Assembly: GCA_947457845.1 (NCBI GenBank)
Contig: CANGXM010000003.1
Location: 1 to 42,085 of the forward strand
DNA from: Rhodospirillales bacterium
GTDB taxonomy: Bacteria > Pseudomonadota > Alphaproteobacteria > Azospirillales > Azospirillaceae
Length of the DNA stretch: 42,085 nucleotides
Reading direction: 5' to 3'
The translations under genes were made by a program, and so were the position numbers. Shown here piece after piece: positions 11,695-19,824 of the stretch (position 1 is its first letter; every line of letters starts with the position of its first letter). The notes below the pieces were generated by a model. The model made no database searches, was not told the origin of the DNA, and saw only the letters and a list, made by a program, of their open reading frames with translations.

Positions 11695-12066
11695 ATGAGC
11701 ATGAAGGTTCTCGTCGTGGATGACTACGCAACAATGCGGCGCATCATCCGCAACCTCTTGACCCAGATCGGTTTCACCGACGTCGACGAGGCGGCCGACG
11801 GGGCGAGCGCGCTGAGCAAGCTTCGCGAGGCGAAGTTCGGCCTCGTCATCTCCGACTGGAACATGGAGCCGATGACCGGCCTCCAGCTCCTCAAGGAGGT
11901 CCGTGCCGACAAGGTGCTGAAGGACACGCCCTTCATCATGGTCACGGCCGAGAGCAAGACCGAGAACGTGGTCGCGGCGAAGCAGGCGGGTGTCAACAAC
12001 TACATCGTAAAGCCGTTCAACGCCGAAACGCTGAAGAGCAAGATCCAGTCGGTCATCGGAGAGTGA
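11695..12066 (+). CDS. cheY: Chemotaxis response regulator CheY
   Basis: MSMKVLVVDDYATMRRIIRNLLTQIGF...LVISDWNMEPMTGLQLLKEVR...PFIMVTAE...AGVNNYIVKPFNAETL. Confidence 0.93.
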   Translation: MSMKVLVVDDYATMRRIIRNLLTQIGFTDVDEAADGASALSKLREAKFGLVISDWNMEPMTGLQLLKEVRADKVLKDTPFIMVTAESKTENVVAAKQAGVNNYIVKPFNAETLKSKIQSVIGE

Positions 12067-12983
12067 CCGTGCACCGGCCGGCCGACCTCAGCGACGACGA
12101 ATTCGACCAGATCGAGGAACGCCTTTCGGAGACGCCGAAGGGTCGCGCTTTCCTTCGGCGCTACGCGCGGCGTTCCGCGGCAATGGGCGTCGACGAGGTC
12201 CGTACGATCGTCGCGGACCTGCGCGACATGATCTCCGGCCGGGGGGAGGGCGTCGGTCCGGCCGGGCACATGGATGTGCTCCGGCGCGAACTGATGGAGA
12301 TGGCGGCGTCGATCGAGCGGGCCCGGCGCGAGATCGCGTCGCTCCGTCCGGCCGACGAGACGGCGAGCGGGAACAGCAAGATCCTGACCGCCACCAACGA
12401 GCTGGACGCCATCGTCAGCTCGACCGAGCGCGCGTCGATCGAGATCCTGAATTCGGCCGAACGGCTGATGGAGCTGGTCTCCAAGCTGCGCCGGACCGGG
12501 GCCGATTCCGAGATCTGCTCGGACATCGAGAGCGAGGTGACGGGCATCTTCACCGCCTGCTCGTTCCAGGACATCACCGGACAGCGGACGTCGAAGGTCG
12601 TCAACGCGCTCCGCTACATCGAACAGCGCGTCGCGGCGATGATCGGGATCTGGGGAATCGAGGGCATCGCCCCGAACGAGGACGACGACAACGCGGACCG
12701 GCGCCCGGACGCGCATCTCCTCGGCGGGCCGCAGCTCGACGGGATGGGCGTCAGCCAGGACGACATCGACCGGATGCTGAACGACGACAACTTCGCCGTC
12801 GTCTCGGCCCCGGCGGAACCCGAGTGGGACCTCGACCCGCCTCCGGCACCGCCGCCCCCTCCACCGCCGCCCCCTCCACCGCCGCCCCCGGCCAAGAAGG
12901 CCAAGAAGGCGGCCGAGGAGCCGCCGCCGAAGGCGGAGGGCAAGGCGCTCGACCAGTCGGCCATCGACGCGCTCTTCGGCTGA
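12063..12983 (+). CDS. cheZ: CheZ-type CheY-P phosphatase with a poly-Pro linker and CheY-binding-like tail
   Basis: Catalytic-type motif ACSFQDITGQRTSKVVNALRYIEQRV; C-terminal DQSAIDALFG; GTGA overlap with cheY. Confidence 0.85.
   Translation: MTVHRPADLSDDEFDQIEERLSETPKGRAFLRRYARRSAAMGVDEVRTIVADLRDMISGRGEGVGPAGHMDVLRRELMEMAASIERARREIASLRPADETASGNSKILTATNELDAIVSSTERASIEILNSAERLMELVSKLRRTGADSEICSDIESEVTGIFTACSFQDITGQRTSKVVNALRYIEQRVAAMIGIWGIEGIAPNEDDDNADRRPDAHLLGGPQLDGMGVSQDDIDRMLNDDNFAVVSAPAEPEWDLDPPPAPPPPPPPPPPPPPPAKKAKKAAEEPPPKAEGKALDQSAIDALFG
12848..12890 (+). repeat. 15-bp tandem repeat ACCGCCGCCCCCTCC, about 2.9 copies, encoding poly-Pro
   Basis: 12848-12862, 12863-12877 and a partial copy from 12878. 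Confidence 0.85.
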
Positions 12984-14113: not shown

Positions 14114-16078
14114 GTGATCGACATCATCAATCTATCGATCCTGATCGGGTCGGGCCTTCTCGTCCTCAGCATCCTGACGAGCCTGCTTTCCTTCCGGTTC
14201 GGCGCGCCGCTCCTCCTGATCTTCCTCGCGGTCGGCCTCGCCGCGGGCGAGGACGGCCCGGGCCGTCTCATGTTCGACAACGCGCAGGCCGCCTATCTCA
14301 TCGGCAGCGTCGCGCTCGCCGTGATCCTCTACGAGAGCGGGCTGGGGACGCGGCTCTCGGCGTTCCGCTCGGCCGGTCCGCCCGCCATCGCGCTCGCCAC
14401 CGTCGGCGTCGTCGTGACCATGACCATGGTCGCGCTCGCCGCGCGCTATCTGTTCGGATTCTCGTGGATCAACGCGTTCCTCGTCGGCGCGATCGTCAGC
14501 TCGACCGACGCGGCCGCCGTCTTCTTCCTCCTGCGCGTCGGGGGCATCACGCTGCGCGACCGCGTCCGCTCGACGCTGGAGATCGAATCGGGCTCGAACG
14601 ACCCCATCGCCATCTTCCTGACGATCGGGCTGGTCGAACTCGCCGTCTCGGGCGAGAGCGAGCCCTTCGCGGTGGCGATGGTGTTCGTTCAGCAGATGGG
14701 GATCGGCGCGGTCGCGGGGCTGGCCGGCGGCATGCTCGCGGTCGTCGCCCTCTCCCGGCTCAGGATGGACGCCGGCCTGCACGCGGTCTCGTCGCTGGCC
14801 ATGGCGCTGTTCCTGTTCTCGCTCACGGCGGTGATCGGGGGCAGCGGATTCCTGGCCGTCTATCTGGCCGGCCTGTGCGTCGGCAACCGCCGGATTCCAG
14901 GGGGCCAGACCCTCCAGCGGTTCCACCAGGGGCTCGCCTGGCTGGCGCAGATCGTCATGTTCGTGACGCTCGGGCTCCTTGCCACGCCGTCGCAGTTCCC
15001 GGCGATCGCGCCGACGGCGCTCGGACTCGCCGTCGTCCTGGTGCTGGTTGCGCGCCCCCTCGCCGTCTGGCTCTCGCTGCTGCCGTTCCGCTTCAGCCGG
15101 GCCGAGGTGACTTTCATCGCCTGGGTCGGCCTGCGCGGCGCGGTGTCGATCCTTCTCGCCATCGTCCCGATCCTCGCCGACCTGCCGGGCAGCCGCGACC
15201 TCTTCAACATCGCGTTCCTCGTGGTCCTGATGTCGCTGCTGGTGCAGGGCTGGACGATCCGCCCGCTCGCCCGCGGCCTGCGCCTCATCGTTCCGCCGCG
15301 GGCGGGACCGGTCGACCGCGTCGATCTGGAACTGCCGGGAAAGGCGGACTACGAGCTGGTCGCCTACCGGGTGCATGAGCAGAGCCTCGCGGCCCGCGGC
15401 GGCCGGCTTGAGCGCTGGGCCCGCCCGTCGCTCCTCGTCCGGGAGGGGCACGTGCGCCCGCTCCACGGGGCGGGCGCGCTGCAACCGGGCGACCTCGTCT
15501 ATCTGTTCGCGCCGGCCGCGCGCATCCCCCTGCTCGACCGGCTGTTCGGCGCCGCGCGCGAGCATGCCGCCGAGGACCGGGCCTTCTTCGGGGATCTCGC
15601 GCTGCGCCCGGACATCCGCGTCTACGCGCTGGCCGAACTCTACGGCCTACCTCTGGTCGCGGGTGCCGCCGACGACACGCTCGCCGACCTGTTCCACCAG
15701 CGGTTCGGCAGCGGCCTCGAGGTCGGCGATCGGCTGTCGCTCGGTGGCGTCGACCTCATCGTCCGCGACATCGAGGAGGGGCGGATCCTCGAGGTGGGCG
15801 TGGACCTCGACCCCGCGACGGCGCCCTCGCGCCGCATCCCGGTCTTCCAGAGCCCGGCCGAGATCCTCCGGGGGCTCGCGGGCGTCGTGGGGCGCGTGCG
15901 GTTCCGCATCTGGCAGATGCGGGAGCGGCGGCGCGAACGCCGCGTCAATGCGGCGGCGATATCGTCGCTCACATCGAACGCGCCCGATCCTGTGGTAGAA
16001 AGACGGGCGTCCGGCGACGGTCGGACGGCGACGCCGGGCGACGGCGGATCGGAACTCGAACGGACGGGACGGGAATGA
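14114..16078 (+). CDS. K+/H+ (monovalent cation:proton) antiporter, NhaP2/CvrA-like, with cytosolic TrkA_C-type domain
   Basis: Multi-TM CPA1 pattern, [47 protein letters not shown]; soluble C-terminal region. Confidence 0.88.
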
Positions 16079-16401
16079 CCTCGGGTAGCAGGGACGACGC
16101 GCTGGTGGAGATCCGCAAGGAGCTTGCGGGCCTCAAGAACGAGATCGAGAAGGTCGGGACCGTCGCCAAGCAGATCGACACCATCGCCAAGCAGACGAAC
16201 CTCCTCGCCCTGAACGCCACGATCGAGGCGGCGCGGGCGGGCGATGCGGGGCGCGGATTCGCCGTGGTCGCGGGCGAGGTGAAGAACCTCTCGGGACAGA
16301 CCGCCTCGGCCACCGCGGACATCTTCGCGGTGCTCGAGAGCCTGACCCGGCGGACGCAGCTGCTCGACGGTCTCGTCGAGAAGGCGTCCACGGCAGCCTG
16401 A
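16075..16401 (+). CDS. Stand-alone methyl-accepting chemotaxis protein signalling tip (108 aa)
   Basis: [44 protein letters not shown]; no TM, HAMP or sensory domain; ATGA overlap with antiporter. Confidence 0.88.
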
Positions 16402-18818: not shown

Positions 18819-19319
18819 GTGGGCACCATCGGATCCGGTCGACCGCAGGCATTCGGGGCTCCCGTCGCCCGACGGCTCGTCCGGCGGTCGGGGCTCGCGG
18901 CCGGCCCAGGCGCGGGACCGGAAGGCCCCACCGGCGACACCCGGCCGCCGCGCCGCCGCGTCATGATCATCGAGGACGACGCCATCGTCCGCCTCGGGCT
19001 CCAGGCGGTGCTCGAGGACGGGGGCGACGAGGTCATCCTGGCAGGATCCGCCGCGGAGGCGCTGGCCCGCCTCGCGGCGGGGGCGTCGGTTCCCGACGTG
19101 ATCGTCGCCGACTACCGCCTGCGCGACGGGCAGGTGGGGACCGACGCGATCCGCCGGGTCCGCGACGCGGTGGGGCGGGCGCTTCCGGCCGTGCTCCTGA
19201 CGGGCGAGGCGGCCTCCGATCTCCAGGAGGAGGCGGCCCTGCAGGGCCTGCTCGTGGCCGGCAAGCCGATCGGGTCGCGGGACCTGTTCCGCGTCATCGG
19301 CCTCGCCATGGCGACATGA
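18819..19319 (+). CDS. Single-domain response regulator (receiver only)
   Basis: RVMIIEDDAIVRLGLQAVLEDGGDEVILAGSAAEAL...DVIVADYRLRDGQVGTDAIRRVR...VLLTGEA...VAGKPI; start uncertain. Confidence 0.85.
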   Translation: MGTIGSGRPQAFGAPVARRLVRRSGLAAGPGAGPEGPTGDTRPPRRRVMIIEDDAIVRLGLQAVLEDGGDEVILAGSAAEALARLAAGASVPDVIVADYRLRDGQVGTDAIRRVRDAVGRALPAVLLTGEAASDLQEEAALQGLLVAGKPIGSRDLFRVIGLAMAT

Positions 19320-19326
19320 TGGCGGG

Positions 19327-19824
19327 TCAGTCGAACAGGGCGTCGATCGCCGACTGATCGGAGGAGCCCTCGGTCGTCCCGGCCGTGGCGACGCCGTGGA
19401 CGACGCCGCTCCCCTCCCCCACGAGGTTGGTCAGGTCGCGCATCGCCGTGTCGCAGACGTGGCGGAACTCCGGATCGGTCCCGCAGACATCGAGCCGCGC
19501 CACCGCATCGGCGATCCGCCCCTCGATCCGCGACACGACCGCGTCGAAGTCGCTGCGCACCTGCGGCTCGGCCGCGTCGTAGCACTCGATCGCCAGATCG
19601 GCGAACGGCAGCGACGAGCCGCGGAAATGCTCGGCATAGCTCTTCGGCCGCCACGCCTTCAGCTCGTCGAGCATGTCCGGCATGTCCGGCAGAAGCCCGA
19701 GGAGCATGATCGCCTCGTTGGCGTGATTGAAGAAATCCGTGCTGAGGAGCGAGCGGTCGTCGATCGTCGTGCCGTCGATCCTGCGCCTCAGGCTCTCGAT
19801 GCGAGTCGTCCCGTCGGACACCAT
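19327..19824 (-). CDS. Uncharacterised 165-aa protein with CheZ-like C-terminal tail DQSAIDALFD
   Basis: Ends SSDQSAIDALFD*; lacks the FQDxTGQ phosphatase motif. Confidence 0.75.
   Translation of the reverse strand: MVSDGTTRIESLRRRIDGTTIDDRSLLSTDFFNHANEAIMLLGLLPDMPDMLDELKAWRPKSYAEHFRGSSLPFADLAIECYDAAEPQVRSDFDAVVSRIEGRIADAVARLDVCGTDPEFRHVCDTAMRDLTNLVGEGSGVVHGVATAGTTEGSSDQSAIDALFD

Follow-up and report, generated by a model that had tools for sequence, protein, structure and literature searches.

An unnamed alphaproteobacterial protein family with a helical body and a putative CheY-binding C-terminal peptide

P0001, an uncharacterised protein of 165 aa encoded in the window (the whole stretch of 42,085 nucleotides that was analysed), is a member of a new, unnamed family which carries a known kind of motif. 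Judged from its sequence, it is probably a chemotaxis accessory protein that would capture phosphorylated CheY (CheY-P) by its C-terminal tail, with the body acting on CheY-P or relaying it. The features concerned are:

19327-19824, minus strand: uncharacterised 165-aa protein (P0001), with a helical body, a linker and a putative CheY-binding-type C-terminal peptide
19330-19359, minus strand: C-terminal peptide DQSAIDALFD of P0001, residues 156-165, a motif of the type found at the CheZ C-terminus and the FliM N-terminus
19360-19392, minus strand: variable linker of P0001, residues 145-155, from body to peptide
19693-19740, minus strand: helix of the body with the strongest conservation (residues 29-44), a candidate site of activity or interaction
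12063-12983, plus strand: CheZ with FQDITGQ, ending in DQSAIDALFG (12951-12980) and with an internal motif SQDDIDRML (12753-12779)
11695-12066, plus strand: CheY, likely partner of the P0001 tail by alignment to solved CheY
18819-19319, plus strand: convergent stand-alone receiver protein, unlikely partner

The translation of P0001 ends in SSDQSAIDALFD and that of the 306-aa CheZ in ALDQSAIDALFG. An earlier note on this DNA had reported a nonapeptide common to both C-termini, and the two translations agree with it at the positions given above. The DNA of both genes also bears out the four synonymous differences claimed for the nine shared codons, the ending being encoded by GAC CAG TCG GCC ATC GAC GCG CTC TTC GGC in CheZ (DQSAIDALFG) and by GAT CAG TCG GCG ATC GAC GCC CTG TTC GAC in P0001 (DQSAIDALFD). 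As had been stated, the motif FQDxTGQ is absent from the P0001 translation, and the body belongs to no recognised family in the searches of Pfam (no family at E≤1) and NCBIfam (no match).

Conservation of the tail was determined in 115 non-redundant homologs of P0001 (less than 80% identity). Loss of the tail in orthologs had been named in the earlier note as evidence against its reading; the tail is conserved, with Q157 in 97%, I160 in 90% and D161 in 95% of the homologs, a level close to that of the body core. A relaxed form of the motif is present within the last 16 aa of 106 of the 115 homologs, versus 2 of 1,052 neighbouring proteins that are not homologous to P0001, and this conservation in homologs and rarity in neighbours supports, at the level of sequence, a putative CheY-type binding tail. 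The family profile of the tail is DQ[SDA][EAD]IDAL[LF][GD]; the tails of Azospirillum end in IDLYL, a variant of the motif core. Between G144 and the motif most homologs have a spacer of 6 residues (range 4-50), and six homologs carry two tandem motifs, one proximal and one distal. With its linker of 4-50 aa and its tandem copies the tail resembles a free-standing linear binding motif, and a terminal QxxIDxL[LF] peptide of predicted helical propensity indeed follows a linker that is predicted to be flexible. One homolog (L274, genome G318) has much of the body deleted and the tail retained (VDQESVDALLDL).

The degenerate pattern Q..[IV]D has 33 matches in the own genome among those listed, and among the matches read in frame at least four are C-terminal, at most 9 residues from the end. 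The genome-wide search for such peptides that the earlier note had proposed found P0001 and three CheZ-type proteins, namely CheZ 12063-12983, a second CheZ and a CheZ-like protein. The last of these (L293:877-1527, genome G000, contig C32) has FHDLAGQ in place of FQDxTGQ and ends in SQSDIDALFG. The endings of CheZ-type proteins include DQSAIDALFG, SQADIDALFD, NQDDIDALFD and DQSEIDKLLASFD, and nearly all CheZ-type proteins examined end in the motif, with L351 and L356 as exceptions. In the CheZ of the window the internal motif precedes a long proline tract; with this second motif CheZ may hold two CheY molecules. FliM has NQDEIDSLLG near its N-terminus, and the FliM proteins of the clade have RVLNQDEIDSLLGF there. 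The profiles of CheZ ([DS]Q[AS][DE]IDALF) and FliM (NQDEIDSLLGF) both match that of the P0001 tail. The FliM N-terminus is a CheY-binding target, and phosphorylation raises the affinity of CheY for this N-terminus about 20-fold (PMC7355467). Taken together, these endings show the putative CheY-binding peptide to be a portable tail present on unrelated proteins.

The AlphaFold2 model of P0001 (pLDDT 89.6) has helices within residues 3-142, low confidence at residues 148-159 and a helix at residues 157-163, and the model of a Magnetospirillum homolog (pLDDT 89.3) has the same architecture. The body is confidently predicted to be an all-helical domain that is unrelated to CheZ. By Foldseek neither model has a PDB match at E≤0.001, and a PDB sequence search with P0001 gave weak matches only, to designed or unrelated proteins. 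Pfam and NCBIfam likewise contain no family that fits the homologs (Pfam sets of 41 and 58 homologs; CheZ not matched). The HMM and structure searches of the body suggested in the earlier note thus yielded neither a family nor a PDB fold, and the known CheZ or flagellar family that the note had said would overturn its reading was looked for and not found. Homology of the body with CheZ was considered and rejected (hhalign probability 0.7%, CheZ profile unmatched, conserved columns different), and the sequence LQDLIGQ, which occurs in a few homologs, was taken as a coincidence and not as a relative of FQDxTGQ.

In the 115 homologs conservation of the body equals or exceeds that of the tail. Residues L27, T29, D30, N33, H34, N36, E37, M40, W58, Y63, H66 and F67 are 96-100% conserved, D30 and N33 each 98-99%. 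Helix 29-44 contains the near-invariant residues T29, D30, Y31, N33, H34, N36, E37 and M40, with F at position 31 in P0001 itself, and a second conserved stretch, W-x-P-x-x-Y-x-x-H-F, spans residues 58-67. The near-invariant polar residues suggest a role in catalysis, in ligand binding or in tight contact with a protein.

Homologs of P0001 were found in 64 of 99 related genomes and in 76 of 387 sampled genomes from the same class, and in a phylum-wide sample every match lies inside that class. Relatives are encoded at no fewer than 547 places in GTDB genomes and are alphaproteobacterial; among the matches listed are Azospirillum, Niveispirillum, Nitrospirillum, Magnetospirillum, Thalassospira, Telmatospirillum and Novispirillum. 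Some homologs are encoded on Azospirillum chromids, and the annotation, where shown, is 'hypothetical protein'. Among openly licensed papers, literature searches returned none that was recognised as describing the family. The neighbourhoods of the homologs show no linkage to che or fla operons, and the neighbouring genes differ by genus.

CheZ was detected in 70 of the 76 genomes with the gene and in 81 of the 311 without it (Fisher p about 3e-27, uncorrected for relatedness). When only FliM-positive genomes are counted, the numbers are 65 of 67 with the gene versus 74 of 152 without (p about 6e-14, likewise uncorrected for relatedness). Of the copies from genomes with switch genes 66 of 68 keep the tail, versus 5 of 9 from genomes without (p about 0.001, in a test that was set after some tails had been seen). 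In family f66 the tail is missing or degenerate in genomes with no detected CheZ. In the f155 group and in genomes G484 and G527 FliM and CheZ are present, yet the tail is divergent or missing, and in genomes G162, G411 and G172 the tail is kept with no switch genes detected in assemblies that may be incomplete. Genome G085 has in-frame stops in both the gene (L231) and FliM (C4:54388-54582), and FliG was not found there; a joint decay of the gene and FliM is possible.

Almost the full length of the window's CheY can be aligned with solved enteric CheYs, including entry 1f4v, and the protein keeps the residues that form the peptide pocket in E. coli CheY (K91, Y106, V108, F111, A113, T115, L116 and K119). 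On this alignment CheY 11695-12066 is the likely partner of the P0001 tail. Positions 16075-16401 encode a 108-aa protein that resembles the signalling tip of a chemoreceptor alone, without a sensor or membrane part.

We infer that the flexible C-terminal peptide captures CheY-P, on whose alpha4-beta5-alpha5 face it would fold as a short helix, like the CheZ tail and the FliM N-terminus, and that it would compete with CheZ and FliM for CheY-P. The conserved helical domain would then act on the captured CheY-P or pass it to another partner. Against this reading stand the changing gene neighbourhoods with no che or fla linkage, the variant tail core of Azospirillum, and the genomes in which the tail does not go together with FliM and CheZ or with the switch genes. 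That the body is an adaptor or effector which couples CheY-P to a partner has about an even chance; a novel kind of protein that dephosphorylates or modifies CheY-P by means of the T-D-Y-x-N-H-x-N-E helix is possible but less likely, and a passive buffer has little probability. Tentatively, the family may even represent a further class of CheY-P-acting proteins, spread over much of the Alphaproteobacteria and with a fold unrelated to those of CheZ, CheC, CheX and FliY, in which a helical catalytic or ligand-sensing domain with a CheZ-type tail would dephosphorylate, modify or clamp CheY-P.

In CheZ (DxxxQ) and in CheC, CheX and FliY (ExxN) an acid-amide pair aligns water to attack the aspartyl phosphate. 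P0001 could by analogy be a new CheY-P phosphatase, in which the tail would tether CheY-P and an acid-amide pair from D30, N33 and E37 would align the water; this is doubtful. The predicted layout of a helical domain, a linker and a terminal CheY-type peptide is like that of CheZ, and the spacing of the highly conserved D30-x-x-N33 equals that of the ExxN motif. However, CheZ is already present in nearly all genomes that carry the gene, often in several copies, fold and profile comparisons link the protein to no CheY phosphatase, and the equal conservation of H34, W58, Y63 and H66 is left unexplained. Alternatively, P0001 might do nothing more than titrate CheY-P off FliM and CheZ as a passive sink or decoy, for which the tail by itself would be sufficient and the tandem motifs of six homologs would increase the capacity. 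This is improbable: a mere sink has no need of a body whose conservation matches or exceeds that of the tail, and the near-invariant polar stripe in the body points to a second, specific activity or partner instead of passive titration. The earlier reading of P0001 as an adaptor, sink or decoy is supported in part, for its putative CheY-binding-type tail, and is weakened with respect to the sink or decoy.

The partner proposed in that reading, the receiver 18819-19319, fared worse. A peptide that binds this or another receiver or CheY-like protein in a non-chemotaxis pathway would fit the convergent receiver gene adjoining that of P0001, and in Azospirillum the gene often adjoins a response regulator whose N-terminus is sigma-like. 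But no close homolog of the receiver was found beside P0001 homologs in other genomes, and its sequence, read by eye, has Val and Ile at the positions of CheY Tyr106 and Phe111, so that it is an unlikely partner; the association of the gene with CheZ also argues against such a pathway, which is given a low probability. A chance likeness of the C-terminal peptides is hardly credible, since a short linear motif arises easily but this one recurs in 106 of 115 homologs versus 2 of 1,052 controls and, at C-termini of the own genome, is otherwise found in CheZ-type proteins.

Few signalling circuits are understood as well as chemotaxis. If P0001 is a chemotaxis accessory protein, an unrecognised CheY-P partner would be added in a large bacterial class whose members include Azospirillum brasilense, a model organism with several coexisting CheY proteins (PMC8100600). 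A CheY-binding peptide that is portable would also make it possible to uncover further hidden components of chemotaxis by searching for the tail.

Compared with known systems, P0001 may share with CheC, CheX and FliY an analogy of D-x-x-N to E-x-x-N, which is a lead only, and differs from them in its predicted all-helical body and in matching no Pfam or NCBIfam profile. The core motif of FliM (NQDEIDSLLG) is the same as that of the P0001 tail, but stands near the N-terminus in FliM and at the C-terminus in P0001, which is without a FliM domain (no Pfam match of the FliM middle domain, PF02154, in P0001 or its homologs). From CheZ (PF04344) P0001 is set apart by a non-homologous body (hhalign 0.7%), the absence of FQDxTGQ and other conserved residues. 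The alphaproteobacterial type of CheZ has, like P0001, a helical domain, a flexible linker and a C-terminal QxxIDALF, and occurs mostly in the same genomes.
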